Origin: a virus
Direction: 5' to 3' (one strand)
IMG/VR virus record: IMGVR_UViG_3300025674_000176
Coordinates: 1 to 34,348 of that record
DNA: 34,348 bases
Shown in pieces: positions 1 through 32,681 of this stretch. The translations under genes and the position numbers were made by a program. Numbering within the stretch: the first letter of the stretch is position 1; every line of letters begins with the position of its first letter. A model generated the notes under the pieces. The model did no database searches, was not told where the DNA came from, and was given only the letters and a program-made list of their open reading frames with translations.

Positions 1-218
1 AAAGCCTTCTCAGTAGCCGCGTCAATCTTGATACCGCCCCTTGTTGATGATGCTGAGCCAGCAGGGTTCTTCTTAGACCCTTTGATGCGGTCCTTCTTTG
101 GGGCAGGGGTTTGGGCAGATGTCCTATTACTGAGTAATACTTGGCAGACCTCGCCTACAAAAGTGATCGTATCCTGATCACTCTGATTTAAATCTTGGGC
201 TGGAGAGGTCTTGACCAT
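1..218 (-). CDS. Partial DUF5824-like protein, N-terminal part (second allele of 31884-32681)
   Basis: Only the first ~72 codons are present because the window edge cuts the gene. The ATG at 218 is chosen over an upstream in-frame GTG at 230 because a GGAG ribosome binding site lies six bases before the ATG. The sequence matches the start of the full gene at 31884-32681 but differs at several residues after about residue 30. All three dispersed palindromes (125-139, 165-179, 185-194) are unchanged between the alleles while nearby bases diverge strongly. Function is discussed under the full copy. Confidence 0.8.
   Translation of the reverse strand, partial: MVKTSPAQDLNQSDQDTITFVGEVCQVLLSNRTSAQTPAPKKDRIKGSKKNPAGSASSTRGGIKIDAATEKA
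125..139. repeat. Motif A palindrome TATTACTGAGTAATA
   Basis: Perfect 15-base palindrome with central G; inside the DUF5824-like gene, encoding VLLSN. Same site as 32588-32602. Confidence 0.9.
165..179. repeat. Motif B site GATCGTATCCTGATC
   Basis: GATC-N7-GATC inside the DUF5824-like gene; same site as 32628-32642. Confidence 0.75.
185..194. repeat. Motif C GATTTAAATC
   Basis: In the first codons of the DUF5824-like gene, six bases from motif B. Same site as 32648-32657. Confidence 0.8.
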
Positions 219-257
219 AATACACTCCACGTCGGTTAATAAATAAAGCTGCGCGTC

Positions 258-1829
258 CTACTCGTCAAGTGTGGGCTTGACGTTCGGCGCAGGACCTGTC
301 AAGGGCGGCAGCCCAAACTGCTCAAGCACCCTCGGCCCAAGCTCAGGATCGTGCAACATCCCAGCCTGATAGGCGAGACGCAGCGCCACCAGATCTTCAG
401 GGGCGATGCGGGGTGTCTCTTCAGTCTCGGTTGTGCTCTCAAGGGGCGGCAGATCAAGCTGCTCGCGCAGCATGTTCTCAGTCGAGGCATTTGCCGACAA
501 CAGCCCAGCGCTGGTCAGGGTTGAGATGGTCGATGCGTACTTGGCATTGTCCTTCTCTTCAACCACAGCATGGGCAACATTGGGGCAGAACAGCATCCCC
601 ATCTTTGCGTCCATCGGGAAATTGAGGATGAGGAAGCGGCGCATCAACCGCTCAGCGGCGCGTGCTGGCATGTCAGCCAGATAGTCGTAAGCGTCCCTCG
701 ACTCACCAGAAGCGTCAGACCGCGCAGCGTATGACCCCGTGCCCTGCAAGCTCATCAGTTGGTGGGCGTTGCCCAGAGCATGACCGATCTGGCGGTCCAG
801 ATGGTCGATCTGTGGACCAAGGTCGGGGACGGCATCAGACGGCTTGATGATCTCCAGCTTGTGCGCCCCTGGGGGGAACACGATGTGCGCGACGTGCTCA
901 GCAGTGCGCTCATTCAACTGTGCCTCAATCCTGTCAATCGCATCTTCAGTGAGGGGTCGCTGGGAGTCCTGAGTGACGACGGCGACACCCAAGGCATTGA
1001 CCTCGGTTGCAAGCGATTGCAACTGCAACACCTTCTGCTTCATTCGGATGAGTTGGGCACAGGCTCTCAAGATCGAGCGCCCCTCAAGGTCGCCCTTTGA
1101 GGCAGGCAGGTGCGCGACGTGGATGAGCTTTTCCCAAGGAATGACCTTGTAACCGACTCCAGCATCGCCATAGCCGTCAATCTGGTCATAGGTCTCTTGG
1201 ACGATGGCGATCATGCCGTTATCAGGATTGCCCTTGAAGACCCACTCATCGACGGTCCAAGGCATCAGGGCAAAGGGCAGATCGGGGATGAGGTAATCGC
1301 GGGTGACGTTGTTTGTCTTGATGCTCTCAACTGTGGCGGTCAACTCGCCCAGATAGAAGCCGCTGATCAGACTGAACTGCAACACGTCAGCAATAAAGTC
1401 AGACCAGACACGATCTGCACCACACGCGGTCCACTTCGACCAGACGCGAGACGCATAGTCGAACTGGCGGTCGAGGGCGGCTTGGGCGGCTGCGTTACCC
1501 TCAAGGTGGGGCGGCAGCTTTGGTCGCTCGATCCTCCAAGGCGCTGCGCCAATCGCGCTGACGGCTTGCTGGACAGCAGCCCTGACAAGGGGCTCGGTCG
1601 TGGACAGTCGCCAAAACTCACCGACATTACCTGACCTGCCGCGAGCCCTGAGAGGCTTGAAGGTCTGGGTGGGCTCAAGCTCTTGGCGACCCTGCATGAA
1701 GGGGATGCCCGTCCTTGTGGCACGATGCAGCCAGTCAGACGGCTCAACGACGAGGGACGTGCCACGATAAGTGGCCACCTGCGACCCGTCCTCAGACAAC
1801 ATCACAGGGATTGTCTTTGTTGTCACCAC
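258..1829 (-). CDS. Portal protein, DUF935-like (allele 1)
   Basis: Predicted portal of 523 residues, forming the dodecameric ring at the capsid vertex through which DNA is packaged and the tail attached. The body has features of the DUF935/Mu gp29-type family: a central segment with GRSILRAC and the following helix, a long alpha-helical stem region, and a conserved DRQIGHALGNAHQLMSLQ stretch followed by an aromatic-rich clip. The GTG at 1829 is chosen because AGGAGG (minus strand, 1838-1843) lies eight bases upstream. It overlaps the terminase stop, so the two are translationally coupled. It lies directly downstream of the terminase genes, as usual for portals. A second allele is at 32721-34292; the two proteins differ at about 18 residues. 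Family assignment is from pattern recognition. Confidence 0.85.
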   Translation of the reverse strand: MVTTKTIPVMLSEDGSQVATYRGTSLVVEPSDWLHRATRTGIPFMQGRQELEPTQTFKPLRARGRSGNVGEFWRLSTTEPLVRAAVQQAVSAIGAAPWRIERPKLPPHLEGNAAAQAALDRQFDYASRVWSKWTACGADRVWSDFIADVLQFSLISGFYLGELTATVESIKTNNVTRDYLIPDLPFALMPWTVDEWVFKGNPDNGMIAIVQETYDQIDGYGDAGVGYKVIPWEKLIHVAHLPASKGDLEGRSILRACAQLIRMKQKVLQLQSLATEVNALGVAVVTQDSQRPLTEDAIDRIEAQLNERTAEHVAHIVFPPGAHKLEIIKPSDAVPDLGPQIDHLDRQIGHALGNAHQLMSLQGTGSYAARSDASGESRDAYDYLADMPARAAERLMRRFLILNFPMDAKMGMLFCPNVAHAVVEEKDNAKYASTISTLTSAGLLSANASTENMLREQLDLPPLESTTETEETPRIAPEDLVALRLAYQAGMLHDPELGPRVLEQFGLPPLTGPAPNVKPTLDE

Positions 1830-3031
1830 TCTACCGTCCTCCTATTGCGCGCACGGTCCTTGGCCGTCTGTACTCGCACTCTTTGGCCGATGCTGCCAAT
1901 CGTCATGCCCAGTGCCCCACTCGCCGCGTCCACCAAGTCATCGTGGTCGCCATGAGGGAAGGTCACAGCCTGACCCACAAAAGCCTCAGCAAACGGCCCA
2001 TCCTTGACCCAGACCTTGCCCTGCTCGCCTCTAGCAGCGAGGGGCGCAGCGCGTGTCGCCTTGTCTCTTGAGGGCTTGATCGACCTGAGTCCAGAGGCAG
2101 CCATTGTAGGCTCTTGGACCAACTCAGCAAAGGCCACTTCAAAGCCTGCAATCGTCTCGACCCCCACAATAGTGTCGGGCTCACTGTTGGCAGTGTCAAT
2201 GATTCGCTTCTTGATGGTCGGCCAAGGCGCTTTACCCTGCCAGCATCCATCTATCACAACTGTGCCATCAGCCGCCACTGTGATTCGAGCGGTGGCTGTG
2301 TAGTCGGCTGAGGTCTTGGTTGAGACCGCCAAGTCCCAAAATCTGTATCGTTTACCAGATGCGGGTATAGGCAAATTATTACTCAGTATTGGCAGCCATG
2401 CCCTTTTAAACAGGCCGCCACTCAAGTCCACAAACTTGCCCTCAAGCTCTTGTTGGGCAAGCTCAGTCGTGTAGCGCCCCTCTACAAAATTATAGAAGTC
2501 TGGAGGCAGGGCGGTGTTGTCCTTGGTCGAGGCATGGAAAACAGACACGGCGCTGTCTTGAGCCAAGTCGTGCAGCCAGTTGAAACCCTTGGGTGTCGTC
2601 GTCGCCCACAGCCGCCCTGGGTTGAGGCGGAGGCGACCCACCAAGATTTCAAATGCCTCAGCACTCCTAATCATGGCTGCCTCATCAATCCAGATCGCGC
2701 CCAGATTGGGGCCTCTCAACCTGTCAGGCTCGGTCGCGGTCCTCCACAAGATTTCAGTGCCATTAATTAGCGTAGTGGTCAGTTCAGCGCGTCGATGGCT
2801 GGACACAAAGGGCTGCGCCGCTTCCATGAAAGCAGGCAGGGTCGCGTCCTTCAAGACTCGATAGGTTGGCGCGACGACCATGACGCGGGTCCCTGCTGGC
2901 TGCCTGATAACCTCGATGGCACCTGCCCAAGTCTTGCCTGAGCCGATGCCCCCAACAAACAGTCTAAGCCGTGCAGGGTCTAGGAGGAAGTCGTTTTGAA
3001 TCTTGTGTGGGGCTGCGATGAGTCTTGCCAT
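1823..3031 (-). CDS. terL: Terminase large subunit (packaging ATPase-nuclease)
   Basis: 402 residues. The N-terminal ATPase has Walker A GGIGSGKT at about residues 27-34 and Walker B GAIWIDEA at 111-118, with the D-E pair expected of terminases. The C-terminal RNase H-like nuclease starts near FWDLAVSTKTSADY (Asp 233) and continues through GVETIAGFE and the terminal HDDLVDAASGAL (residues 363-374), which supplies the last acidic residues. The protein powers DNA translocation into the prohead and cuts the concatemer. A motif A palindrome lies inside the gene at 2377-2391, encoding ILSNN between the two domains. The start has an AAGGA-type site upstream. The gene sits between the small subunit and the portal, overlapping the latter. 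Confidence 0.95.
   Translation of the reverse strand: MARLIAAPHKIQNDFLLDPARLRLFVGGIGSGKTWAGAIEVIRQPAGTRVMVVAPTYRVLKDATLPAFMEAAQPFVSSHRRAELTTTLINGTEILWRTATEPDRLRGPNLGAIWIDEAAMIRSAEAFEILVGRLRLNPGRLWATTTPKGFNWLHDLAQDSAVSVFHASTKDNTALPPDFYNFVEGRYTTELAQQELEGKFVDLSGGLFKRAWLPILSNNLPIPASGKRYRFWDLAVSTKTSADYTATARITVAADGTVVIDGCWQGKAPWPTIKKRIIDTANSEPDTIVGVETIAGFEVAFAELVQEPTMAASGLRSIKPSRDKATRAAPLAARGEQGKVWVKDGPFAEAFVGQAVTFPHGDHDDLVDAASGALGMTIGSIGQRVRVQTAKDRARNRRTVEW
2377..2391. repeat. Motif A site TATTACTCAGTATTG
   Basis: Inside the terminase large subunit gene, encoding ILSNN. Right half imperfect. Confidence 0.75.
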
Positions 3032-3043: not shown

Positions 3044-3073
3044 GATTTAAATCTTGAATCTTTGATTTAAATC
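3044..3073. repeat. Two motif C copies between small and large terminase genes
   Basis: GATTTAAATC at 3044-3053 and 3064-3073. The second is part of TGATTTAAATCA and provides the small terminase stop codon. They fill the gap between the genes. Confidence 0.85.
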
Positions 3074-3911: not shown

Positions 3912-3926
3912 TAGTACTCAGTACTG
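3912..3926. repeat. Motif A site TAGTACTCAGTACTG
   Basis: Intergenic; perfect over its inner 13 bases. Shares base 3926 with the motif B site that follows. Confidence 0.9.
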
Positions 3927-3940
3927 ATCGTGGTGTGATC
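3926..3940. repeat. Motif B site GATCGTGGTGTGATC
   Basis: Intergenic, upstream of the VRR-NUC and terminase genes. Confidence 0.85.
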
Positions 3941-3942
3941 GG

Positions 3943-6219
3943 CTAGTGGAACGTCATCGGCTTGAGCTTGAGAGGGAACTTGTACCCTTTGTTTGTGTTC
4001 CTCATCTCAAAGCCCTCCCTGCGCACTCGCTCAAAGAACTTCTTTTCCTGCAAGACGTGTTTGACTCCAGTCTCGCTGCAATAGTTCACGAAGTCCTTAT
4101 ACATCGTCCTGCACCCCACGCATGCCTTGTTGCCCTCTGTCTCAAGGTCAACGATCTCAGTGCGCTCAGCGAGGTACTGCTTAACCCTGTCGGTGTCGAA
4201 GCGCCAGTTGTGCAGGGTCTTCTCTGCGGCAGGGGAGCTTGAGTAGCCCCTGTCAGCGCCCGTCCTCTTGAGGGCAGCGGCACCAGCCTCAAGGCACGCC
4301 TTGGCGATCCCAGGCAGTTCGGCGGCCAGCTTGTCACCCAGCGTCCTGTCCTGCTCATGCTTCTTGAAGGTTCGCTCAAAGGGCACCACGATCCATCGAC
4401 GCCAGAAGCCGTCTGACTGGTCCCTGACTGCTGGGAGGGAGTTGGCTGCAAAGACGTGTCCCGCGCAGGGGCGATACTCAAAGGCTTTCTCGTAAGGGTT
4501 TCTCGCGGTGATCTCGTCGCCGGAGAAGATGGCCTTGATCGCGCCCGACTTCAAGATGCACTCGTCATCCACCTCGTTGACCAAGTTGATGCGCCGACCA
4601 GCCAGACGAGCGAGGGCATAGTTGGAGTCCTTGGCGAGGGCTTGAGGTGTGAGGGCAGAGCGGAACTCGTCGGGGATCATCGCGCTGACCACATCAAGCA
4701 AGGTGCTCTTGCCGTTCGCGCCTTCACCCACCAACATCAACGCCTTGGCAAAGCTAGGGCTTTGACCGAGCAGGGCGACCCCGATCCACTCTTTGATGAG
4801 TTGGCCACACTCAGGGCTGACGACCTCAGACAGAAACTTGTCAAAGGCTGGGCAGGTGGCAGCAGGGTCCCAATCAAACGCCAGCTTGTAGCGCTGACGG
4901 AAGTCCCTGTTGTGATCGTAGTAGTTGAGGGAGGCATCAACGACGCCGTTGTTGAAGGCCACAACATGAGGGGCGTCCTTGAAGAAGCCCTTTCTGTGGC
5001 TGTGGTCCATGAAGAGTGTGTGGTGCGCCTTGGTGTCTGACTGCTGCCAATGAATCTTCTTGTACTTGGGCTGTCCTTGAGCATCCACGCCAGTCTGGTA
5101 CTTCAGCTTGCTGTCCATGTGCCCCAGCAACTGGGTGGTGTGATGGCCCTCCCACAGTTCCCACGCGCCCGTCGAGGGCTCATAGCGCCACAGCCACCCC
5201 TCGTCATAGACCAACTGGGTGTCGCTGCGACCAAAGTGGTTGGTCAGAAACCACTTGGCGGTAGCAAGCTGCTTGCTGCTGTCCGTCACAGTGCTGACCG
5301 TCGTGGGCGTGTTGATGTCTGTGGTGGGCGTCCACTTCACAGCCTGCTTGATGCACCTGTCAACCTCATCCTCAAGCAGAGGCACGTCGTTGAGGCTGTT
5401 GAAGGCAGTGGCCACGACCTTCAACTGGTCCGCGTCCAACCCCCTGTCGCGGAACCAGCCCAGGCACGACATCATCTCGTCGTTGCGACCCCCCTCTGAC
5501 AGCTTGAACTTCTTGGGTCCGGCCTTCTCAATCCCAGCGAACACACTGTGATCAGTGACACTTTTATTACTGGGTACTGACTTGGGGATGGTGGACAGGT
5601 CGAGGACGTTGGCCAAGCCGTCGAAGTCGTGACCGTGGTCCTGCTGGACACCATCTCTGACGACGCGGGGCAGCCTGTAGCAGCGGGTCAAGTCCTTGGT
5701 GGCCGGGTCAACCATGATGCCATGAGCGGTCAGGGCAGCGGTCATCCTCTGTCGGTAGTCGTCCCACGCGGCAGGAGGCAGCGGCGCTGGCAATCGCCAG
5801 ATGAGGCGGTAGCCGCCCCTCGTCGCGTAGAAGCCGTGTGTGTCAAGCCACTCGTCAGGCAGCGTCTCAATCAGGTCACACTGCTCGTCGGCCCAGTCAG
5901 CCTGCGCGTCCTCGTCGTCCTTGACTTCTGAGGGCATGTCCACGTCAAAGACGAGGGCGCTGTAGAGCATCGTGCGCCCATCAGCCAACTCGCCAGTTGT
6001 CCTGTCCTTGATGGCGCTCTTGTTGATGCGAGGGGCTGACGACTCGCCTTCAATGAAGTAGGGCACGAAGTGCGCGTCAGTGTTGTAGATGGCCTCAAGC
6101 GCTGCAATCAACTGCACAACATCGTGCTGCACCAACGTGGACGGGTCGCCACCGTCCTCCCAGCCTTTGTACTTCTTATGTTCCCAAACAGTAACAAATG
6201 ATTCGGTCATCTCAGTCAT
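3943..6219 (-). CDS. Primase-helicase (AEP-type primase with D5/SF3 helicase)
   Basis: 758 residues. The N-terminal region looks like an archaeo-eukaryotic primase: ALVFDVDMP supplies a DxD metal site, followed by ATRGGYRLIWRL and DPATKDLTRCYRLPRV, similar to phage and plasmid primases of this fold. The C-terminal half is a D5-type superfamily 3 helicase: Walker A VGEGANGKST near residue 500, NLVNEVDDE as Walker B, HVFAANSLP as sensor 1, and GFWRRWIVVPF as the arginine-finger segment. It should unwind and prime at the phage origin. The ATG at 6219 is chosen because GGAGG (6229-6233) lies nine bases upstream; it overlaps the end of the HTH gene. A motif A site falls inside at 5565-5579. This replication gene lies on the packaging strand, opposite the polymerase operon. 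Confidence 0.9.
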   Translation of the reverse strand: MTEMTESFVTVWEHKKYKGWEDGGDPSTLVQHDVVQLIAALEAIYNTDAHFVPYFIEGESSAPRINKSAIKDRTTGELADGRTMLYSALVFDVDMPSEVKDDEDAQADWADEQCDLIETLPDEWLDTHGFYATRGGYRLIWRLPAPLPPAAWDDYRQRMTAALTAHGIMVDPATKDLTRCYRLPRVVRDGVQQDHGHDFDGLANVLDLSTIPKSVPSNKSVTDHSVFAGIEKAGPKKFKLSEGGRNDEMMSCLGWFRDRGLDADQLKVVATAFNSLNDVPLLEDEVDRCIKQAVKWTPTTDINTPTTVSTVTDSSKQLATAKWFLTNHFGRSDTQLVYDEGWLWRYEPSTGAWELWEGHHTTQLLGHMDSKLKYQTGVDAQGQPKYKKIHWQQSDTKAHHTLFMDHSHRKGFFKDAPHVVAFNNGVVDASLNYYDHNRDFRQRYKLAFDWDPAATCPAFDKFLSEVVSPECGQLIKEWIGVALLGQSPSFAKALMLVGEGANGKSTLLDVVSAMIPDEFRSALTPQALAKDSNYALARLAGRRINLVNEVDDECILKSGAIKAIFSGDEITARNPYEKAFEYRPCAGHVFAANSLPAVRDQSDGFWRRWIVVPFERTFKKHEQDRTLGDKLAAELPGIAKACLEAGAAALKRTGADRGYSSSPAAEKTLHNWRFDTDRVKQYLAERTEIVDLETEGNKACVGCRTMYKDFVNYCSETGVKHVLQEKKFFERVRREGFEMRNTNKGYKFPLKLKPMTFH
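5565..5579. repeat. Motif A site TATTACTGGGTACTG
   Basis: Inside the primase-helicase gene, encoding VPSN, between the primase and helicase regions. Confidence 0.75.
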
Positions 6220-6445
6220 TGTGCCATTCCTCCACTTCGCGCATGACAGCATCAACCAACTCAGGGTAGTAGTCCATGAGTCCCACAGCGCCGTTTGTCA
6301 GATGGTACAACTCAATGCAGGTCTCAGGGCGAGGACGTGAAACGCCCGTGACCCACCTGCTGACACTCGCTCTAGTCACCCCCAGTCTGTCTGCAAGGCG
6401 GCACGCCTTACTGCTCGTCGCCCTCAACCACTCTTCAACTCTCAT
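6212..6445 (-). CDS. Small Cro-like helix-turn-helix regulator
   Basis: 77 residues. The stretch CRLADRLGVTRASVSRWVTGVSRPRPETCIELYHLTNGAVG is a typical lambda repressor-like HTH with a short C-terminal tail and no protease or oligomerisation domain, so it resembles Cro or YdaS-type proteins rather than a full CI repressor. A GAGGTG ribosome binding site precedes the ATG. It is the first gene of the leftward unit, behind a promoter at 6494-6522, and overlaps the primase-helicase start, so the two are co-translated. It is the only clear small transcription factor in the genome, hence the best candidate to bind the repeats at 6591-6868 or the dispersed palindromes. That link is inference. Confidence 0.85.
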   Translation of the reverse strand: MRVEEWLRATSSKACRLADRLGVTRASVSRWVTGVSRPRPETCIELYHLTNGAVGLMDYYPELVDAVMREVEEWHND

Positions 6446-6493
6446 CGTTCACACCTCTTGTTGTTGTTGGCTGCTACTACCAGCAGCAGGTCA

Positions 6494-6522
6494 ATAGTAG
6501 TACAGCACACTGCATACGTCAA
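6494..6522 (-). promoter_or_regulatory. Leftward promoter for HTH and primase-helicase genes
   Basis: On the minus strand TTGACG (6517-6522) is followed after 17 bases by TACTAT (6494-6499): five of six and four of six matches to the sigma70 hexamers at ideal spacing. Transcription would start near 6487, about 42 bases before the HTH gene. Confidence 0.6.
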
Positions 6523-6590
6523 GTAACCATTAATGAAATATTTACTGACCAGAATCACCCCTGCCCCAAATGAGGGCGTCAGCAGCACAA

Positions 6591-6604
6591 GTCCACTTCT
6601 CCAC
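6591..6604. repeat. Iteron copy 1 (GTCCACTTCTCCAC)
   Basis: Exact 14-mer, repeated inverted at 6667-6680 and direct at 6775-6788. A half-copy GTCCAC follows at 6621-6626. Confidence 0.85.
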
Positions 6605-6662
6605 GCCTTTTGTGAACTAAGTCCACCGCAGTTAAGCCCGTCACAGTCGGGCTCAAAGGCGA

Positions 6663-6687
6663 AAAAGTGGAGAAGTGGACTTATTTT
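6663..6687. repeat. Left arm of perfect 25-bp inverted repeat (contains iteron copy 2)
   Basis: These 25 bases are exactly the reverse complement of 6768-6792. The core GTGGAGAAGTGGAC lies at 6667-6680, flanked by A and T runs that are also conserved. A TATAAT hexamer (6701-6706) lies between the arms, so binding or looping across them would cover it. Confidence 0.9.
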
Positions 6688-6700
6688 GGCTTGCAGTCTC

Positions 6701-6706
6701 TATAAT
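6701..6706 (+). promoter_or_regulatory. TATAAT hexamer between inverted repeat arms
   Basis: A perfect -10 hexamer, but the bases 17-18 upstream (GACTTA/GGACTT, inside the iteron) are a poor -35. It could be an activated or repressed promoter, or chance. Confidence 0.3.
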
Positions 6707-6767
6707 ACACGTCGTCCCTATACCCACAATCCTACCTCCCCCAAGCTCTCATATGCGAAAGTTTTTG

Positions 6768-6792
6768 AAAATAAGTCCACTTCTCCACTTTT
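6768..6792. repeat. Right arm of perfect 25-bp inverted repeat (contains iteron copy 3)
   Basis: Exact reverse complement of 6663-6687; the core GTCCACTTCTCCAC is at 6775-6788. The 80-base spacer gives room for a protein-bridged loop or a cruciform. Confidence 0.9.
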
Positions 6793-6826
6793 GGCCTTTT
6801 AACCTCGTCATAGCGGCATCGGGGCG

Positions 6827-6868
6827 GTGGACTTGTGGGTGGAGAAGTGGTGGAGAAGTGGAGAAGTG
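6827..6868. repeat. Dense array of GTGGAGAAGTG half-iterons
   Basis: GTGGACTT at 6827-6834 is followed by three closely packed copies of GTGGAGAAGTG beginning at 6839, 6850 and 6858, the last two overlapping. Their orientation is that of copy 2. Clustered, partly overlapping short repeats of this kind are typical of origins and cooperative operators. Confidence 0.85.
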
Positions 6869-6990
6869 TTGTCAAAAGACAGCCTACAGGGCTGATGGAT
6901 GGGCGGTCTGGTGTGTGGTTGTCATGCCAAGAGTGATGTCAGGGCATGGTAAAGGAACGTTTCTTTTGGTCAGCCCAAAATAAATGATCG

Positions 6991-7065: not shown

Positions 7066-9084
7066 GTGACGATGTTTGAGCCCAAGAAGGTCTGGAAGAA
7101 CACAAGTGCTTCCCAGATATCCACTTATCGTTTGTGCCCTACCAAGTGGTGGCTGAACAAGATTGGTGGCTTGCCCACCCCTCAGCACCCGTCAGCCATC
7201 CTTGGGTCGCAGAAGCACTCGATACTTGAGTCTTATTTTAAGGGTCATATCGAGTCGCTTGACGACCCAATCTTGAAGCCAGGACTCAAGTATTTGCCCC
7301 CAGTACTCAGTATTAGACCTGAAGGGGTCGAGATGCGGGTCAACTGGCAACCCCCAGACATGCCCGTCAAGATGCTCGGCGTCATCGACTTGGTTGAGCA
7401 CGCGGCTGCCACCATCACCGACCACAAGACGACAGGCAACTTCAAGTACACCAAGTCTGAGGAACAACTGCGTCACGACCCCCAAGCCATCATCTACAGT
7501 CGGTACGCCTTTGAGAGCATCCCTGAATTTCAGGACACCCTGACCTTCAGGCACATCTACTATCGAACAAAGGGCACGCCTGCCTCAAAGCAGACAGCCG
7601 TCAGGTTCACCCCTGCCCAGATCGACAAGGCTTGGGCGTCCCTTGTCCAAACGTCACAGCAGATGGCTGATCACAGCGTGATCGCTGGTGAGGATGTGCC
7701 CTACAACCTGAACGCTTGCAGCGCCTATGGCGGCTGCCCCTTCAAAGTCCAATGCGCCAACATGGGGCGCGACACCCTTGGTTCTTTTGGCAAAATGATT
7801 GCCCTTACTAACTCTGAGGAGAGTAACAAAATGAACGCATTTGCAGAACGTCTGAAGCAGCGCAAGGCTGGCAACATCGCCCAACCCGCCCCTACCAAAG
7901 AGCCCTCTGCCTACCACAAGTGGTTTGAGGCCAAAGGCCACCCTGCCCCCCCTGCCGTCTTTGCTGACCACGAGGCTGCCATCATGTGGGCCAGACCCCT
8001 CATCAGCAACGACGACACCCTCAAGGCTGCCTACAAGCGCTGCTACGACAAGGCTGAGCCCAAGACGCTTGAAGCCATCAGTGTCCTCTGGGTCAAGTCT
8101 GTCAGGGAGTTCTTGATTGGCTCAGCGCCCTCTGACCAGCCCCAAACGACCCAAAGCCAACCTGCCGTCCCCCCACCCGCTCAGTTCGCCCTGCCCACGG
8201 CTCAAGATGTCAACCCGCCTGACGGCGCTGGTCCCTTCGACATCCCTGCGATCCCTGAGCCTGCCGCCAAGGCTGCCAAGTCCTCTGGACCCCTCATGCC
8301 TGACGGCACCCCTGCCTCCAAGCTCAAGAAGGCAGAGATGTTTGAGAAGGTCGCTGAGATCCTGTCCAGCCTGTCTGACCAAGAGAAGGCGCGAGTGGCC
8401 GACAAGCTCATCTCTGGCAAGACCAAGCAGTTCTGCCTCACTGGCCAGCCTCCTACTGGTCTCAAGAGGATGGACGTGCGCGACGAGTTGGTGCCCCTCT
8501 TGACCTGCCTCTTGACGGATGGCGACCTGCACCCTGAGCACAGCGACGACGTGTTGGTTGAAGCCGCAGACGACCCCCAGCTTTCATTACTCAGTAATAA
8601 AGAGGACGCCCCTGCCCCTGAATCTAAGCCTGAGCCTGAATCTAAGCCTGAGCCTGCGCCTAAGCGCCGCTTGACCTCAGCCATCTTGAAGGCAAAAGAA
8701 GAGTCAGCCTTCAGCCTTGAGCTTGAGTTGAAGCAACTCAAGATTGAGATGTCCCTGCTCAAGGCTGAGAATGAGCGTCTTAGGTCTCAGGCGGTTCGAG
8801 ACGAGCCTGCGACCTCGACCCTCTACATCGGCTGCCGCCCCACCAACCTGCTCAATGTGGTCGAGTGGGCTGAGTTCAGCCGCCCTTATGCTCAGCGTGT
8901 CGTCAGCAGTGAGGGCGTGCCCAGCTATCACTTGGTGCCTTATGGCAAGGGTCCTGCCCTGTTGGCCAGTGTGATTGAGATGAGCAAGCCTGAGTTGCCT
9001 GCTGCCCTCGTCGTCCCTGCTGACATCCCCCTGCCTATCAGAGAGACGCTGACTGCCATCTTCGATGTGGTGGTCAGCGCCTGA
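7066..9084 (+). CDS. Cas4/RecB-like PD-(D/E)XK nuclease with Fe-S cysteines and long C-terminal extension
   Basis: 672 residues. The N-terminal ~230 residues form a RecB/Cas4-type nuclease: GVIDLV (near 104) gives the metal-binding Asp, DHKTT (near 118) the D-x-K, and RHDPQAIIYSRYAF the QxxxY-like helix. One early cysteine (YRLCPTKWW) and three late ones (CSAYGGCPFKVQC, near 217-230) are placed as in proteins that hold an iron-sulphur cluster. The remaining ~440 residues are unlike usual short phage Cas4 proteins: a Pro-rich linker, a PESKPE repeat, a coiled coil (ELELKQLKIEMSLLKAENERL), and an unrecognised ~95-residue end domain. GTG 7066 is chosen because AGGAGG lies eight bases upstream. 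First gene of the rightward operon; a role in end processing or recombination is likely. It contains two motif A sites and one motif B site. Confidence 0.8.
   Translation: MTMFEPKKVWKNTSASQISTYRLCPTKWWLNKIGGLPTPQHPSAILGSQKHSILESYFKGHIESLDDPILKPGLKYLPPVLSIRPEGVEMRVNWQPPDMPVKMLGVIDLVEHAAATITDHKTTGNFKYTKSEEQLRHDPQAIIYSRYAFESIPEFQDTLTFRHIYYRTKGTPASKQTAVRFTPAQIDKAWASLVQTSQQMADHSVIAGEDVPYNLNACSAYGGCPFKVQCANMGRDTLGSFGKMIALTNSEESNKMNAFAERLKQRKAGNIAQPAPTKEPSAYHKWFEAKGHPAPPAVFADHEAAIMWARPLISNDDTLKAAYKRCYDKAEPKTLEAISVLWVKSVREFLIGSAPSDQPQTTQSQPAVPPPAQFALPTAQDVNPPDGAGPFDIPAIPEPAAKAAKSSGPLMPDGTPASKLKKAEMFEKVAEILSSLSDQEKARVADKLISGKTKQFCLTGQPPTGLKRMDVRDELVPLLTCLLTDGDLHPEHSDDVLVEAADDPQLSLLSNKEDAPAPESKPEPESKPEPAPKRRLTSAILKAKEESAFSLELELKQLKIEMSLLKAENERLRSQAVRDEPATSTLYIGCRPTNLLNVVEWAEFSRPYAQRVVSSEGVPSYHLVPYGKGPALLASVIEMSKPELPAALVVPADIPLPIRETLTAIFDVVVSA
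7301..7315. repeat. Motif A site CAGTACTCAGTATTA
   Basis: Inside the Cas4-like nuclease gene, encoding PVLSI. Confidence 0.75.
7669..7683. repeat. Motif B site GATCACAGCGTGATC
   Basis: Inside the nuclease gene, encoding DHSVIAG. Perfect inverted repeat GATCAC/GTGATC. Confidence 0.85.
8585..8599. repeat. Motif A site CATTACTCAGTAATA
   Basis: Inside the linker of the nuclease gene, encoding LLSN; palindromic except for the outermost pair. Confidence 0.85.
8617..8652 (+). repeat. Two 18-bp tandem repeats in nuclease linker
   Basis: CCTGAATCTAAGCCTGAG occurs twice in a row, encoding PESKPE twice in the low-complexity linker ahead of the coiled coil. Confidence 0.9.
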
Positions 9085-9092
9085 TTTAAATC
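9083..9092. repeat. Motif C GATTTAAATC at nuclease stop
   Basis: Within TGATTTAAATCA (9082-9093); its TGA is the nuclease stop codon. Confidence 0.85.
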
Positions 9093-9098: not shown

Positions 9099-9126
9099 GA
9101 TTTAGATTTAGATTTAGATTTAAATC
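9099..9126. repeat. Tandem GATTTA repeat ending in GATTTAAATC
   Basis: Three GATTTA hexamers in a row run into a full GATTTAAATC palindrome (9117-9126); another copy is just upstream at 9083-9092. This fills most of the 65-base gap between the nuclease and the next gene. Confidence 0.9.
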
Positions 9127-11536: not shown

Positions 11537-11560
11537 CACACGTCAAATATCGCCTATAAT
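11533..11560 (+). promoter_or_regulatory. Consensus promoter for ssDNA-binding-like gene and DNA polymerase
   Basis: Perfect TTGACA (11533-11538) and perfect TATAAT (11555-11560) with a 16-base spacer; it overlaps the last codon and stop of the helicase gene. The start point falls near 11567, just before a palindromic operator-like site (11570-11590). Confidence 0.9.
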
Positions 11561-11569: not shown

Positions 11570-11590
11570 CCTGATCAGAGTGTGATCAGG
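11570..11590. promoter_or_regulatory. Palindromic operator-like site containing motif B (11573-11587)
   Basis: CCTGATCA, five bases, then TGATCAGG: a perfect 8-bp inverted repeat placed at about +4 to +24 of the strongest promoter in the window. Its GATC-N7-GATC core makes it one of the eleven dispersed motif B sites. A protein bound here would block early elongation. This is the best evidence that motif B is an operator. Confidence 0.75.
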
Positions 11591-12252: not shown

Positions 12253-12267
12253 TATTACCCAGTAATA
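12253..12267. repeat. Motif A site TATTACCCAGTAATA
   Basis: In the leader just upstream of the polymerase ribosome binding site. Confidence 0.85.
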
Positions 12268-18611: not shown

Positions 18612-18626
18612 TATTACTGAGTAATA
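18612..18626. repeat. Motif A palindrome TATTACTGAGTAATA
   Basis: Perfect palindrome, intergenic, four bases from a motif B site, upstream of the 98-residue protein gene. Confidence 0.9.
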
Positions 18627-18629
18627 ACC

Positions 18630-18653
18630 GATCATGGTGTGATCGGTGTGATC
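18630..18653. repeat. Motif B site GATCATGGTGTGATC plus a third GATC
   Basis: Core at 18630-18644, with a third GATC at 18650-18653; intergenic, beside motif A. Confidence 0.85.
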
Positions 18654-20777: not shown

Positions 20778-20792
20778 TATTACCCAGTACTA
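20778..20792. repeat. Motif A site TATTACCCAGTACTA
   Basis: Contains the TAG stop of the 750-residue gene and ends two bases from the ATG of the next gene. Confidence 0.85.
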
Positions 20793-23042
20793 AGCCCTGT
20801 ACGTCTTGGGCAGGTCTGTGTTCAACTCGTCGTCAGCGTCAGCGACGAACACCCAGTCGTCCTGTTGCTGCGTCACACACTGAGCATAGGCACTCGGCCT
20901 GATGATGTCACTCACAGCCACAGATGGGCTGGATGGCGCAGTCAGCGTGATCTGGTTGCCGACAATGTTCCCAATAAACAGCCCAGTATCCTTGGGAGTG
21001 CCAAACTCATCCATGATGTCAATCGCGTCACCTATGCTAAAGCCCTCAATGTCAGAATCAAAAGGTCCTGATCCCCCTGATTCAGTGAAGGTGTTGGCCG
21101 CAATACTAAACACTGAGGCTGAGGTGACTGAGGCGACCTCGCCTGATGGCGCAATCCAGCCGTCCCTTGGGTGAATCAAGCCGACATCCAACAGCCCATA
21201 GATCACAGCGTGATCACCAACACCCCCAACCTCACCTGTAAAGACCTCGCGCCTACTGACCACCAGCATCGCTGCACCAACACGACCCCTAGACCCATCA
21301 CCAGCAGGGATGAGGTCGTGGGTCACGCTGATTACATCGCCCAAGTCGAACTGTGCTGTGGGCAGGCACTCAACGAACAACAGAGGGATTGGATCGTGGT
21401 AGCGCTGAATGATGGTCTGAATGACCTGTGTCGCAACGTCACGCCTCTTTGTCCCCCTGAGTTTCAAGCTCAGGCTGTTGTGCTCCCCAGGCGGCTGCCG
21501 CCGATACTTGATGGTGTCTCGCGCTGTGATGCGGTGTGGTGGCAGCCCAGGCTCAAGCCTGTACTCAAGCTCAACCTTGTCAATCGCATCAACCAAGTTG
21601 CGGCTGTGGATGATCTGAGCCTCCCTGACTTGACTCTGGACCAAGGTCAAACCACTGCCATATTCGGCGCTGTCTTTGAGCCTGATGATGCTCAGTTGGC
21701 CAGAGGGCAAAGACACCATCGCTGAGAGAAGTGGCCGCAGAATCTCATTGATGAGGTCCCCTAACCTCACACTCTCAGACTCAAAGAAGAACACGTCATC
21801 AAGTGATACCCCAACCTCATCCCCCCACCTCAGAATCCCATCGACATCGACGTAGTTGGCGGGGACGTTGCCAGCCAAGGCGTTGATGCCAAGGTCATAG
21901 GACCCATTAGGACCAGCCACGTTATCGTTGCGCGTCGTCGTCAAGAGTTGAAGGATGAGCTTGCCAGGGTGGCTGGACAGGGGCAGGGTGTTGTCGCCAA
22001 TACTACCACTGTCCACATTACTTGGACTATCTGCGCGAGTGCTGAAGACCTCCCTTGTGTCCGTGTCTTTGTAAGTGGACATGTCTTCAGGCAGGGGTCG
22101 CCCAGCGAACGTCTCTGGGTCTGCCAGCATGTGCAGGTAGAAGTTCGCGCCTTGGTCAATCGCGGTATATGTCCCCTTAATAACAGCGTCCTCGCCCAGC
22201 ATGAAGAGGGCTTGGGTCGGATCGCTGACCACCCCTGAGCCTGCGGCTGGTGCCTCCTGCGTCAACATGGTGGCGACCAAACTGTCAAGTCGAGGGCGCT
22301 GCCCATCAAGCAAGGCATTAATCATCGTGCCCTGACAGCGATCTGAGAGGATCTGCTGGGCATCAATCAGCCCCAACAAACCATCAGCGTTGATGGTGAA
22401 GCTCAGCCCTGTGTCGTCTGTGTCGATGTCTCTGACCACCCCAGACCACAGCACTGACTCATCGGCCTCAGCGTCAACCGTGTCGAGCGGCACCCTGACA
22501 AGCTGAATCAGGCGTCCTGCCAAGGTGTTGAGAGTTTGGAAGACCTCAACGTCGTCAGTCGTGTCAGCCCCATGACTGGGCGCATACGTCCCTAACACTG
22601 CCCTCGTCACATTGTAGCGGTATCCTCCAGAGATGGTGGTCTGGCTTGAGCCATCAACGACCAACGCCTCACGCTCCAAGTAGACCGTGCCATCAATCCC
22701 TGCCGTGTCGAGGTCGATGGTGTTTTGAATGGCCGTCATGTCAGCAATCAAGCGCGCCACGACCCCGTGTCTCAACCTATAGAGCAGCGACCTCAGTTGA
22801 GTCGTGGCTCTAAGGTCAAAGGTCTGGGTGGATATGGTGGCGCGACCGTCTCTGAAGTCAACGTCAGCGCTCAGTTCAGAGGGCCACATCTGCAAGCCGT
22901 CAATGAACAGCCCGTCAGGATCTGCTGTGGCCGCGTCACCAAAGAAGTTGCGCGCATAACAAATGCGATAGCGCTGGTCGGTGGCTGAGGCTGTTGTGTC
23001 GCCCAGCCCCTCGATCTTGATTGCGTGCAAGTACCTTGGCAT
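20790..23042 (-). CDS. Large tail tip/hub protein candidate
   Basis: 750 residues, the longest structural protein in the window. It begins MPRYLHAIKIEGLGDTTASATDQRYRICY; regions such as VYLEREALVVDG, GGYRYNVTRAVLGTYA and SVLWSGVVRDIDTDDTGLSFTINADGLLGLID recall the ring-forming hub folds of siphovirus and myovirus tails, and the C-terminal part has GDVISVTHDLIPAGDG. In the usual order after tape measure and distal tail protein this slot is taken by the tail-associated hub that contacts the host. It carries a motif B site at 21201-21215, encoding DHAVIYG. Exact homologue is not recognised. Confidence 0.65.
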   Translation of the reverse strand: MPRYLHAIKIEGLGDTTASATDQRYRICYARNFFGDAATADPDGLFIDGLQMWPSELSADVDFRDGRATISTQTFDLRATTQLRSLLYRLRHGVVARLIADMTAIQNTIDLDTAGIDGTVYLEREALVVDGSSQTTISGGYRYNVTRAVLGTYAPSHGADTTDDVEVFQTLNTLAGRLIQLVRVPLDTVDAEADESVLWSGVVRDIDTDDTGLSFTINADGLLGLIDAQQILSDRCQGTMINALLDGQRPRLDSLVATMLTQEAPAAGSGVVSDPTQALFMLGEDAVIKGTYTAIDQGANFYLHMLADPETFAGRPLPEDMSTYKDTDTREVFSTRADSPSNVDSGSIGDNTLPLSSHPGKLILQLLTTTRNDNVAGPNGSYDLGINALAGNVPANYVDVDGILRWGDEVGVSLDDVFFFESESVRLGDLINEILRPLLSAMVSLPSGQLSIIRLKDSAEYGSGLTLVQSQVREAQIIHSRNLVDAIDKVELEYRLEPGLPPHRITARDTIKYRRQPPGEHNSLSLKLRGTKRRDVATQVIQTIIQRYHDPIPLLFVECLPTAQFDLGDVISVTHDLIPAGDGSRGRVGAAMLVVSRREVFTGEVGGVGDHAVIYGLLDVGLIHPRDGWIAPSGEVASVTSASVFSIAANTFTESGGSGPFDSDIEGFSIGDAIDIMDEFGTPKDTGLFIGNIVGNQITLTAPSSPSVAVSDIIRPSAYAQCVTQQQDDWVFVADADDELNTDLPKTYRA
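21201..21215. repeat. Motif B site GATCACAGCGTGATC
   Basis: Inside the 750-residue tail gene, encoding DHAVIYG. Identical to 7669-7683. Confidence 0.85.
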
Positions 23043-23929
23043 CAGACCACCTTGAAGGCTGATATCGTGATATCAAAGAGTACAGGGCTGTCCGACACCC
23101 TTGAGGCCACCCCATCAAGGCTGGCCAACCAGCCGTCCTGAGCACCCGGCTGTAGTTGGACGTAATCTGACAGATCGTTGATGTCAGGAAAGAAGCGGCA
23201 GTAGAGGCTTGAATCAAGGCGCGACCAAAGCCGCCTCAACTCATCAAAGCAGGCGTTAACATCACCTGTGGCAGCGCCGATGATTGAAGCATAATCAGCA
23301 TCGTCCACATAAAACTGGTAGACGCTGGCGGCAGGGAGTGTCATCAGCATGATGGTTTTGCGCGTCACGTCCCCATAAGTGTCTCGACTTGTGGTGCCGT
23401 CTGGGCTGGTAGTACTGAGTACTGTTGTGCGCGTCGTCTCTTCAGCCCCTGCGCACAAGCCAGGGTACTCGTCAATCACCCACAAGCCTTGTGCCCTGTT
23501 TGTGGCGGTCCACACTGCGGGGTCAGACACAGGGTCAGCAGGGGCGACCGTGGTTGTGCTGAAACCAAACGTCACCATGCTCACCTCACCACCTGTGACC
23601 TCCAGACTGGTGACACTATCAGCAGCGTCGCCCTTCTCGCGCTGAATCTTGAAGACCCCTTTGTAGGTGCCCGACAGTTGCTCGACCGACCAAGCGCCGT
23701 TCGTGCCTGCTGCAAGCTCAGCAGCCTCAAGCTGGGTGGCCAAGTGGTACAGCAGGTTGACGCCCAAAGCTACCCCATCAACGTCGAGGTCATTGTAGTA
23801 GGTGCCAGCCACAGCAGTAGCCGTGATGGTCGTAGGACCCACAGCAGAGTTGCCCAGCACCAACTCAAACTGGGTGGCAGTCGTGATCTGGTAGGGAAGG
23901 GTGAAAAGACACCTTGTGAAGTTTGCCAT
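23042..23929 (-). CDS. Distal tail protein candidate
   Basis: 295 residues between the tape measure and hub genes, where the distal tail (Dit) protein normally lies. The sequence is mixed alpha/beta, beginning MANFTRCLFTLPYQITTATQFELVLGN and ending in DSPVLFDITISAFKVV. No clear Dit motif is visible, so the call rests on position and size. It overlaps its downstream neighbour by one base and its start lies at the tape measure stop. A motif A site encodes VLST at 23410-23424. Confidence 0.5.
   Translation of the reverse strand: MANFTRCLFTLPYQITTATQFELVLGNSAVGPTTITATAVAGTYYNDLDVDGVALGVNLLYHLATQLEAAELAAGTNGAWSVEQLSGTYKGVFKIQREKGDAADSVTSLEVTGGEVSMVTFGFSTTTVAPADPVSDPAVWTATNRAQGLWVIDEYPGLCAGAEETTRTTVLSTTSPDGTTSRDTYGDVTRKTIMLMTLPAASVYQFYVDDADYASIIGAATGDVNACFDELRRLWSRLDSSLYCRFFPDINDLSDYVQLQPGAQDGWLASLDGVASRVSDSPVLFDITISAFKVV
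23410..23424. repeat. Motif A site TAGTACTGAGTACTG
   Basis: Inside the distal tail candidate gene, encoding VLST; perfect over its inner 13 bases. Confidence 0.9.
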
Positions 23930-25839: not shown

Positions 25840-25851
25840 CGTCGCCCCTCT

Positions 25852-25866
25852 GATCGTGCTGTGATC
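25852..25866. repeat. Motif B site GATCGTGCTGTGATC
   Basis: Intergenic upstream of the tape measure gene; reverse complement of 28335-28349. Confidence 0.85.
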
Positions 25867-25867
25867 G

Positions 25868-25882
25868 TATTACTGAGTAATA
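25868..25882. repeat. Motif A palindrome TATTACTGAGTAATA
   Basis: Perfect palindrome, intergenic upstream of the tape measure gene, one base from a motif B site. Confidence 0.9.
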
Positions 25883-26543: not shown

Positions 26544-26553
26544 GATTTAAATC
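26544..26553. repeat. Motif C GATTTAAATC at tail tube stop
   Basis: Within TGATTTAAATCA (26543-26554); its minus-strand TGA is the tail tube stop codon. Confidence 0.85.
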
Positions 26554-28289: not shown

Positions 28290-28613
28290 TCAGCCCCTCT
28301 CTAACAGGTCTTCGAGGTATGAAGCCATTGAGGCGATCACAGCACGATCATCCGGCTCAGGCAGTTCCTGATACTTGGCATAATCGAGCTTTGTGTAGAT
28401 GCCGATATTACCAGCCACAGAGTCAACGTGGTGGTTCTTGTCGCGGGTGCGCGTCAACGATTTGAGCAGGTCGCCCTTATCTTTAGGGATGGCTGAGCGC
28501 TGTCTCTTGAACTCGTCTGTGACAGCCTCATCAACGACCCGAACCATGTCAGCGTCCACACGTTGAGGCAGGCGCTTGACTGCTGCGACCAACTTGTCAA
28601 AGCCCTCAAACAT
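28290..28613 (-). CDS. HK97 gp10-like neck protein
   Basis: 107 residues. MFEGFDKLVAAVKRLPQRVDADMVRVVDEAV, then IPKDKGDLLKSLTRT, and a C-terminal YAKYQELPEP match the small HK97 gp10-like family, which links head and tail. Its order between connector and terminator fits. It carries a motif B site at 28335-28349, encoding DRAVIAS. Confidence 0.75.
   Translation of the reverse strand: MFEGFDKLVAAVKRLPQRVDADMVRVVDEAVTDEFKRQRSAIPKDKGDLLKSLTRTRDKNHHVDSVAGNIGIYTKLDYAKYQELPEPDDRAVIASMASYLEDLLERG
28335..28349. repeat. Motif B site GATCACAGCACGATC
   Basis: Inside the gp10-like gene, encoding DRAVIAS. Confidence 0.8.
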
Positions 28614-29134
28614 CAGAACTCAAAGCCTCCCTCATCGACCCCCAAAAGGTTTGAGCGCCCATCAAACTGACGACGTGCGCGCTTGGCAGTCAAGGTCGTG
28701 GACAGCCCCAGGTCAGCGAATCTGGTGCGCGGCGCACTGACCGACGAGGGGTCAGCCACCCTACCAAGGGCTCTGGCTGGGTTGTCCAACAGCAGGTCAA
28801 GCTCAGCCTTGAGGTCTTCAAGCAGGGCTGTCGTGTCTGCGTCGATGGTCGTAGGGTGGTGGGACGCCCTCAAGATCGAGGGGATTGCAGCCGCGACCAC
28901 CAAGCGCTGAGCATTGTAGTACTCAGTACTAGTCGCGTCAGCCGCAATCTCTGTGCTCGTCCCTGAGCCAAAGGCACCATCAATCAAGCCGTTCACCCGC
29001 GCTGCTGCCGCCTGTATCAGGGTGGTGGCCCTAGCAGTGGTCAACAAGATGCCCGTGCCTGAATCAATGATGATCTGGGGAAGGCTCGCCAGGATTCGGT
29101 CGGCGTCAACGCCAAATGTCTGAACTGCTGCCAT
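28613..29134 (-). CDS. Head-tail connector candidate
   Basis: 173 residues, largely helical, in the position of gp6/DUF1320-type connectors that extend the portal after packaging. The sequence includes LIQAAAARVNGLIDGAFG and LLEDLKAELDLLLDNP. It overlaps the gp10-like gene by one base. A motif A palindrome (28917-28931) encodes TSTEYYN near the middle. Family assignment is positional. Confidence 0.55.
   Translation of the reverse strand: MAAVQTFGVDADRILASLPQIIIDSGTGILLTTARATTLIQAAAARVNGLIDGAFGSGTSTEIAADATSTEYYNAQRLVVAAAIPSILRASHHPTTIDADTTALLEDLKAELDLLLDNPARALGRVADPSSVSAPRTRFADLGLSTTLTAKRARRQFDGRSNLLGVDEGGFEF
28917..28931. repeat. Motif A palindrome TAGTACTCAGTACTA
   Basis: Perfect palindrome inside the connector gene, encoding TSTEYYN in a different frame from most other sites. 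Confidence 0.9.
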
Positions 29135-30756: not shown

Positions 30757-31887
30757 TCAGACGTTGCGAGCCTGAGCGGCGCGCTTGAGTTGCTTGTAGA
30801 TCTCGTAGGCTTTGATTTGATCGCCCTCAGCCATCTGGATAGCTTTGGCCTCAATCTCGTCGTCGGTCAGGGCAGTGGCCTCAGCCTCAACAGGGGCAGC
30901 GGCCTCACCCAGACGCACAGCCCAGGGGTTAGAGGGTGCAGGCTCAGACGCCTTGACCACAGGCGCGACCTCAGCGGGGGTCGCCTCAGACAGGATCGCA
31001 CCAACGCGGTCTTTGTCTTTGCGCCAGACATCGAAGATGAGCGAGGCGAGACCGGGCGTCCACGTCAGGGACGAGGGCTGAACCTGCTCAAAGATCGCCT
31101 GATCACGCTGTGATCGCAGCGTCTCCAGTTCTTCGCGCATGGCGACGACGGCAGGGTCCTCGGCCATCTCAGGAGCTTCAGGAGCTTCAGGAGCTTCAGG
31201 CTCATCAGCCTTCTCTTCAGGCATCTCAGCCAAAGCCTTCTCCATCAGTTCCTTCAGTTCGGCCAACTCGGTCAGAGCGGCGGCCATCTTCTCAACCTTG
31301 GCCTCAAGGACATCCAAGCGGTCCTTGGGCTTGTCCTCGCCGTCCATCATTTCAGGCGACTTCTCGTCGTAATGATCGGGCATGTCGCCCTCCTTGTGCT
31401 CGGCACCCAGGACGTGGGAGTCGCCGGGTGACAGGTTTTTCTGATGAGGTGCCGCAACCAACGACGCCTCTCTCAAGGCAAAACTAAACTTGCGCCCTCG
31501 GTCATCTTCGATAGGACCAAAGGCTGGGGACAGATACTTGATTCGACCCTGCTTGATTTTGCCCTCAGCATCTGGGTCTGCAAAGGCCACAGCGGCGATG
31601 AGCGAGTCTTTGCCATCAAGGCTGTGACGCTGGAGCTTCAGGATGTCGCCGTGCCGCTCGCCGTCTCGGTCGTGCTCGCGCAACAAGGGCGCAGTGTAGT
31701 CACCCTTCAATAGTACTCGGTACTCAGCGACCCGATCATCAAGCCAGTCGCCGTCAACCTTGTACTCTTTGCCTTGATAGACAAAGCCAGGAGCTTGTGC
31801 GAGTAGGACCCACCGCACCAGACGACCCCCTGGGTCCTTGGGCTTGGGCGGTAGGCCGGGTATCGTTAGGACCAATCCCTGTCTCAT
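30757..31887 (-). CDS. Mu I-like prohead protease with scaffold domain
   Basis: 376 residues from the ATG at 31887. GGAGG seven bases upstream supports this start, which overlaps the stop of the upstream gene (ATGA); an earlier in-frame start at 31926 would overlap more. The N-terminal ~155 residues match the phage Mu I-protein protease: LREHDRDGERHGD, AFADPDAEG, and the signature IKYLSPAFG with its likely catalytic Ser. The rest is an acidic, helical scaffold with an EAP repeat and a coiled coil (DRLDVLEAKVEKMAAALTELAELKELM). Such proteins template capsid assembly and then cut themselves and the capsid. Motif A and B sites are inside. Confidence 0.85.
   Translation of the reverse strand: MRQGLVLTIPGLPPKPKDPGGRLVRWVLLAQAPGFVYQGKEYKVDGDWLDDRVAEYRVLLKGDYTAPLLREHDRDGERHGDILKLQRHSLDGKDSLIAAVAFADPDAEGKIKQGRIKYLSPAFGPIEDDRGRKFSFALREASLVAAPHQKNLSPGDSHVLGAEHKEGDMPDHYDEKSPEMMDGEDKPKDRLDVLEAKVEKMAAALTELAELKELMEKALAEMPEEKADEPEAPEAPEAPEMAEDPAVVAMREELETLRSQRDQAIFEQVQPSSLTWTPGLASLIFDVWRKDKDRVGAILSEATPAEVAPVVKASEPAPSNPWAVRLGEAAAPVEAEATALTDDEIEAKAIQMAEGDQIKAYEIYKQLKRAAQARNV
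31101..31115. repeat. Motif B site GATCACGCTGTGATC
   Basis: Inside the scaffold part of the protease gene; reverse complement identical to 7669-7683 and 21201-21215. Confidence 0.85.
31171..31197 (-). repeat. Three 9-bp tandem repeats (AGGAGCTTC)
   Basis: AGGAGCTTC three times in a row, coding for the PEAPEAPEAPE stretch of the scaffold domain. Copy number could vary between strains. Confidence 0.9.
31711..31725. repeat. Motif A site TAGTACTCGGTACTC
   Basis: Inside the protease domain of the prohead protease gene, encoding EYRVLL. Confidence 0.7.
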
Positions 31888-32681
31888 TTGTCCCCCTCCA
31901 GCCGCTTGATTTGGCGTGCAGCCCACTCAGCCACGTCGGTCCCTCGTCGAGCGCCCCACAACCCTAATGCCTGTTTGGCCTTGGGCACATGCCCCTGCTC
32001 ATCTCTAGCAGGCTGAGCATCAGCAGTCGAGGCTGACCTATTGATAAAGTCTCTAATCCTCTTGAGGGTGTCCACACTCAAAGGTCGGTTGGCTGCCAGA
32101 TCGCGTGCTCTAGCCAGACCAACAGGTGTGCCTGCGCGCTTGCTGGGTGGCGCTTCAGCCCTTGCCTCAAGCGCCCACTTGGCAGCGCGACGCATTGAGG
32201 GTGTGGGGCGAACCGTCTCAGCAGCCTTTGTTGATTGAGGGTGGTCGCTAGGCAACAGGTCTAGGTCAGTGTTGTACGCCTTCTTGCGCTGACCTGTTTT
32301 CAGCAATTTCAAGAAAGCATTAACGCGACCCATCGACCATTGGTTGCGGGTCATGCCAGGGCGGTGTGAGACACTGAAGGCACCAGCCCCCCTTCTATAG
32401 ACAGCCTTGAGCGTCCCAATATCCACTCGCCGCTTACCTTTTAGACTGTCAACCTTTGCCCTCAAAGCCTTCTCAGTCGCCTTGTCAATCTTGATGCCGC
32501 CCCTTGTACCAGCCGCAGATCCGGCAGGATTCTTCTTAGACCCTTTGATGCGGTCCTTCTTTGGGGCAGGTGTCTGAGCCTTGGTTCTATTACTGAGTAA
32601 TACTCGGCAGACCTCGCCCACAAAAGTGATCGTATCCTGATCACTCTGATTTAAATCTTGGGCTGGAGAGGTCTTGACCAT
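31884..32681 (-). CDS. DUF5824-like protein, full copy
   Basis: 265 residues from the ATG at 32681 (GGAG six bases upstream; the GTG at 32693 is disfavoured). A central block, ALRAKVDSLKGKRRVDIGTLKAVYRRGAGAFSVSHRPGMTRNQWSMGRVNAFLKLLKTGQRKKAYNTDLDLLP, matches a domain seen in many phage proteins near the portal (DUF5824 or related), of unknown function. The flanks are basic and Ala/Pro-rich, and the C terminus has a second block with LGLWGARRGTDVAEWAARQIKRLEG. Lying between portal and protease, it may be a minor head protein acting in assembly or injection. A partial second allele is at 1-218. Confidence 0.7.
   Translation of the reverse strand: MVKTSPAQDLNQSDQDTITFVGEVCRVLLSNRTKAQTPAPKKDRIKGSKKNPAGSAAGTRGGIKIDKATEKALRAKVDSLKGKRRVDIGTLKAVYRRGAGAFSVSHRPGMTRNQWSMGRVNAFLKLLKTGQRKKAYNTDLDLLPSDHPQSTKAAETVRPTPSMRRAAKWALEARAEAPPSKRAGTPVGLARARDLAANRPLSVDTLKRIRDFINRSASTADAQPARDEQGHVPKAKQALGLWGARRGTDVAEWAARQIKRLEGDK
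32588..32602. repeat. Motif A palindrome TATTACTGAGTAATA
   Basis: Same genome position as 125-139, in the other allele. Confidence 0.9.
32628..32642. repeat. Motif B site GATCGTATCCTGATC
   Basis: Same genome position as 165-179, in the other allele. Confidence 0.75.
32648..32657. repeat. Motif C GATTTAAATC
   Basis: Same genome position as 185-194, in the other allele. Confidence 0.8.

Follow-up and report, generated by a model that had tools for sequence, protein, structure and literature searches.

The window analysed here is the entire IMG/VR virus record IMGVR_UViG_3300025674_000176, a stretch of 34348 bases. Its last 1885 bases (32464-34348) match the first 1886 (1-1886) at 94% identity with 115 differences, and this near-duplicate reflects two strains that meet where the circle closes, or else a genuine doubling of the portal gene; the genome is treated here as circularly permuted, about 32463 bp long and closed through a second strain. 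The portal, terminase, tail and head genes are read leftward, as are those for a VRR-NUC nuclease, a D5/PriCT primase-helicase and a 77-residue Cro/YdaS-like protein, while the genes for a nuclease, a helicase and the DNA polymerase are read rightward. Within the tail region, two gene pairs are duplicated about 1.13-1.15 kb apart (16008-16166 with 17159-17317, and 17022-17152 with 18155-18282). A terminase search among genome contigs returned one distant relative only, and no host is therefore assigned.

Spread along this genome is a family of 15-bp palindromes, motif A, which an earlier note had placed at fifteen centres with a sixteenth at 32595 as the second allele of the site at 132. All sixteen were found there, and the duplicated ends account for the second allele. 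The core TACYSRGTA occurs 16 times (fifteen places and the second copy of one in the end duplication), whereas 0.18 occurrences are expected from dinucleotide shuffles and 0.24-0.38 from Markov nulls of order 2-4; within coding sequences, 11 sites stand against 0.39 expected from codon shuffles. Shuffled and codon-preserving genomes thus average fewer than 0.4 sites, far under the observed count, and the departure from chance is stronger than had been claimed. A position weight matrix (PWM) scan of the genome places the 16 sites at 18.3-26.7 bits and the best other sequence at 4.7 bits, and an unbiased de novo search for gapped palindromes recovers the motif (TACTNAGTA) with a log-likelihood score of 22.6 versus a null maximum of 9.1. 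The sites are also evenly spread, as had been proposed: the spacing of the 15 unique sites has a coefficient of variation (CV) of 0.35, whereas random placement averages 0.95 (P 2e-5 to 3e-5). Moreover, site 132 and its copy are identical in all 15 bp despite ten differences in the roughly 25 bp to each side.

The symmetry of motif A is looser than the word palindrome implies. Although the dyad layout stands, the half-sites vary out of step, with T/C, T/T and G/T combinations present, and changes at position 3/13 and at the outer positions disrupt base pairing independently on each side. Judged by this variation, motif A is better described as a consensus for recognition than as a strict palindrome. 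Of the 16 sites, six conform to TTACN3GTAA, the remainder having GTAC or mixed half-sites, and no consistent orientation of the central base was found within the leftward genes. We infer that the sites would be bound by protein dimers, each half-site being read separately, rather than fold into hairpins, because independent changes in the half-sites break the base pairing.

The same unbiased search revealed a second strong family that is absent from the earlier account. Its signal, GATCNNNNNNNGATC, reached a log-likelihood score of 24.6 against the null maximum of 9.1 and refines to SYGATCRYRSYRYGATCRS, termed motif C, with 13 unique sites at 18.4-26.4 bits and everything else at or below 12.4 bits. 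Motif C shares the 6-3-6 dyad layout of motif A and is likewise evenly spaced (CV 0.39, P 3e-4).

Table 1. Positions of the palindrome families and of the candidate binding protein in the window.
Feature	Position	Strand	Context or source
Motif A, TATTACTGAGTAATA	125-139		core and PWM scans; second copy 32588-32602
Motif A	2377-2391		within terminase large subunit gene
Motif A	3912-3926		intergenic; overlaps motif C at 3924
Motif A	5565-5579		within primase-helicase gene
Motif A	7301-7315		within PD-(D/E)XK nuclease gene
Motif A	8585-8599		within PD-(D/E)XK nuclease gene
Motif A	10932-10946		within helicase gene
Motif A	12253-12267		probably just upstream of DNA polymerase start (start codon uncertain)
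Motif A	14981-14995		overlaps stop codon; next gene starts 17 bp on
Motif A	18612-18626		intergenic; adjoins motif C at 18628
Motif A	20778-20792		between two tail genes; overlaps stop codon
Motif A	23410-23424		within structural gene
Motif A	25868-25882		intergenic; adjoins motif C at 25850
Motif A	28917-28931		within structural gene
Motif A, weakest (18.3 bits)	31711-31725		within structural gene
Motif A, end-duplication copy of 125-139	32588-32602		end comparison
Motif C	163-181		second copy 32626-32644
Motif C	1207-1225		within portal gene
Motif C	3924-3942		intergenic; overlaps motif A site
Motif C	5537-5555		within primase gene; 26 bp from motif A site centre
Motif C	7667-7685		within nuclease gene
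Motif C	11571-11589		immediately downstream of perfect-consensus sigma-70 promoter TTGACA-16-TATAAT, 11533-11560
Motif C	14513-14531		palindrome scan
Motif C	16232-16250		palindrome scan
Motif C	18628-18646		intergenic; paired with motif A site
Motif C	21199-21217		palindrome scan
Motif C	25850-25868		intergenic; paired with motif A site
Motif C	28333-28351		palindrome scan
Motif C	31099-31117		palindrome scan
Third palindrome, GATTTAAATC	185-194, 3044-3053, 3064-3073, 9083-9092, 9117-9126, 26544-26553 (and 32648-32657)		repeat search
77-aa YdaS/Cro-like HTH protein	6212-6445	-	weak candidate binder of one motif

The site map bears out the earlier observation that motif A lies in genes and gaps alike and in both transcription units. 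Eight of the 15 motif A sites and 8 of the 13 motif C sites are fully intragenic, and non-coding DNA, which makes up 5.3% of the genome, is nevertheless enriched for both motifs (motif A 7/15, P 5e-6; motif C 5/13, P 4e-4), these figures being based on trimmed gene starts, with motif A dropping to as few as 5/15 should the doubtful sites at 132 and 12260 prove coding. The intergenic sites fall between a stop codon and the following start, about 3-85 bp from the next start codon, and the promoter directly upstream of a motif C site is the sole one of perfect consensus in the genome. The two families are also associated with each other, five motif C sites lying within 45 bp of a motif A site against a mean of 0.55 in random rotations (P 7e-4), which suggests that two binding proteins may cooperate at the close pairs.

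It is instructive to view the sites against the relatives of this phage. Another terminase search yielded 21 contigs at 71-85% identity, sister phages with virion genes in common, and TACYSRGTA is absent from all 21. A PWM scan of ten relatives (the largest or otherwise chosen) gave no motif A match at or above 10 bits and motif C matches of at most 14.7 bits, and the scanned sister phages carry no dispersed palindrome of comparable strength, showing only modest signals, CCTCGAGG and GACCNGGTC, whose flanks are unconserved. The repeats CGAGNNNCTCG, GACCNGGTC and CCTCGAGG in other phages were set aside as lacking extended symmetry and resembling codon patterns. At five motif A sites in regions that can be aligned, 39-64% of site bases differ from the relatives against 19-38% in the 60-bp flanks, and the differences within genes are mostly substitutions without insertions or deletions. 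Motif A sites were therefore built by substitution, and gained and kept by selection, in the lineage of the window, since divergence has run faster at the site positions than in the flanks. For the earlier note, related phages without the sites at aligned positions and without replacements would refute the motif; the absence is real in the sister phages, but because the aligned positions outpaced their flanks it is read here as a lineage-specific gain and not as a lack of function.

The record G078 (36 kb), which shares the replication genes, with a polymerase and a helicase 42-43% identical, and which encodes a homologue of the 77-residue protein at 32%, has neither a motif A core nor a comparable palindrome set when checked as a whole. 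IMG/VR scans for TATTACTSAGTAATA (64 stretches) and TAGTACTSAGTACTA (19) found no contig with a convincing set of sites, and IMG/VR protein searches with the nuclease, the primase and the HTH protein found no relative. The best contig from these scans, L090 (IMGVR_UViG_3300010270_000039, 14 kb), has 7 core matches where Markov nulls give 2.3-3.6, and was rejected as background; it is 14120 bp long with 123-bp identical ends and carries a ParA gene with TATTACTCAGTAATA close upstream. Another virus contig, L059, otherwise unrelated, has three overlapping tandem TACTCAGTA cores at 12780-12800.

Which proteins might bind the sites is less easily read from the gene content. As the earlier note had stated for this genome, the scanned proteins yielded neither an integrase nor a CI-type repressor, and the same holds for ParA and ParB; sequence profiles gave no integrase-like or tyrosine-recombinase match, and the family scans made gave no match to a phiC31-type repressor. 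The only HTH protein found as a possible counterpart of an immunity repressor is the 77-residue Cro/YdaS-like protein, whose closest solved sequence is the Cro protein 3bd1 (E 0.0012) and whose single-sequence AlphaFold model, with a pLDDT of 55, is too poor to use. It stays a candidate binder, as proposed before, but a weak one, given that the adjacent 545-bp region and the homologue-bearing G078 both lack motif A. This region (6446-6990), divergent and non-coding, has no motif C site either and instead holds GTGGAGAAGTG/CACTTCTCCAC repeated at least six times, with copies in each orientation, together with a 40-nt inverted repeat; it is a possible replication origin or control region.

A few phages and plasmids already provide examples of dispersed palindromic operators, and the comparison with them is informative. 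As a positive control, the same de novo scan recovered 15 dispersed palindromes in the 41-kb genome of phiC31, which are the binding sites of the phiC31 repressor. The likeness to motif A lies in some 15 near-identical palindromes dispersed over a phage genome. The phiC31 site is, however, an even palindrome of 18 bp (CCTACTCACGTGAGTAGG) rather than one of 15 bp; 14 of the 15 phiC31 sites lie between genes and one within, in contrast to the intragenic majority of motifs A and C; their spacing is not evener than random (CV 0.76); and phiC31 encodes a repressor and has an integrase gene. Cluster A phages such as L5 and Bxb1 carry 20-30 dispersed repressor sites, the stoperators, mostly away from promoters, which block elongation (PMC6550527). 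Stoperators are 13 bp, asymmetric and oriented with transcription, whereas motif A is palindromic, a contrast that the earlier note had drawn; it is nonetheless incomplete, palindromic dispersed repressor sites having precedents in phiC31 and in the KorB and KorA operators of IncP plasmids.

These plasmids combine two operator families, OB and OA, on one replicon, some close together and served by two cooperating global repressors, KorB and KorA (PMC11790492, PMC4889941), the OB sites being scattered across the IncP genome (PMC5016525). The two dispersed, operator-like families described here, with their five close pairs, recall this arrangement, and differ from it in their sequences, in their phage setting, in lying mostly inside genes and in having no match to a KorB/ParB-like protein or ParA. 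In Bacillus phage SPbeta, the 15-bp element SPBRE is repeated on the genome and bound by the master repressor MrpR (PMC10516654). SPBRE, unlike the present sites, is located in promoter and intergenic regions, and the fold of MrpR is that of a tyrosine recombinase, no sign of which was seen here by sequence. Phage N15 has far fewer centromere sites than there are motif A and C sites in this genome. It also needs the Sop (ParA/ParB) proteins, and SopA and SopB were not found here. The N15 centromere sites are inverted repeats scattered on the phage genome (PMC5016525).

Overall, dispersed protein-binding sites, either repressor-like or DNA-organising, are the best reading of motif A, as the earlier note had offered; its further suggestion of recombination boundary sites finds no support as site-specific recombination. 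We lean toward motifs A and C being dispersed repressor or road-block operators for two phage proteins, giving this about an even chance. A dimeric protein, probably phage-encoded, would bind each palindrome of two half-sites, motif A and motif C separately; once bound at promoters, between genes and within long genes, it could block initiation or elongation about every 1-2 kb, and the whole genome might thereby stay silent while repressed or carried, like one under stoperators or the phiC31 inverted repeats, with the A-binder and the C-binder cooperating at the five close pairs in the way known for KorA and KorB of IncP plasmids. The sites, their departure from chance, their even spacing, the A-C pairing and the lineage-specific selection are demonstrated by the analysis, whereas the repression mechanism, the identities of the proteins and the carried state are conjectural. 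Near-identical sites with nothing intermediate in score, an excess that withstands codon shuffling, half-sites that change separately, the excess of sites in gene gaps, the motif C site beside the promoter, the A-C pairing, the selection on motif A sites, the intact site 132 between diverged copies and the phiC31-type signal count for operators. Against them count the divergent region without motif A and the sister phages, which manage without a comparable set; further, gene content does not support a repressed state, because the scanned proteins gave no recognisable prophage repressor and neither an integrase nor a partition protein. The features that a repressor explains least well are the evenness and the many sites within genes.

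It is on these features that the chief rival rests, namely that a DNA-organising or ParB-like phage protein compacts, tethers or partitions the genome through the sites, in the manner of N15. The intragenic majority and a spacing evener than that of phiC31 are at least as compatible with such a role in architecture or segregation, and both families are evenly spaced (P 2e-5 and 3e-4), uniformly strong in score and present in genes, gaps and all transcription units. We nevertheless consider it less likely, given that neither ParA nor ParB is among the scanned proteins, that the excess before gene starts and the one promoter site suggest transcription control, and that an architectural function has no need of two families. 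Operators of a host regulator, exploited or tolerated by the phage, for instance those of a LexA-like regulon, are a more improbable source: the palindromes are of a size usual for bacterial operators, and TTACN3GTAA resembles the Bdellovibrio LexA box, but the motif A sites outside the six that fit it depart from that form, the sites are missing from phages whose virions are related, and such dense, even coverage of genes would be unusual for host operators. The 6-3-6 layout of both motifs could also describe an RNA hairpin or processing site with a 6-bp stem and a 3-nt loop. This we disfavour strongly, as several sites have uncompensated non-pairing positions, the motif A stems are AT-rich and a terminator scan gave no excess over shuffles. 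Chance, codon bias or an assembly artefact, for which the duplicated contig ends are the only argument, is refuted by the dinucleotide, Markov and codon nulls and by the de novo scores of both motifs, and its probability is negligible.

A broader suggestion, which we put forward tentatively and which may well fail, is that a phage in which no integrase, ParAB or CI repressor is recognisable runs a two-protein system for genome-wide silencing or architecture, its interleaved and partly paired families set at a regular 2-kb spacing and written by substitution into conserved genes in one lineage only. Two interleaved, even and mostly intragenic families, in a genome where lysogeny genes are not recognisable, would differ in design from known operators. 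The absence of the sites from relatives that share the virion genes opens the system to study as a recent gain, and it could be asked how a dispersed regulon arises without breaking proteins and what the even spacing is for, silencing or the organisation of the DNA.

Finally, a third palindrome, GATTTAAATC, which scored below motifs A and C in the gapped-palindrome search, is present in 6 unique copies where about 0.3 would be expected; these lie mostly at or beside gene boundaries and include two close pairs.
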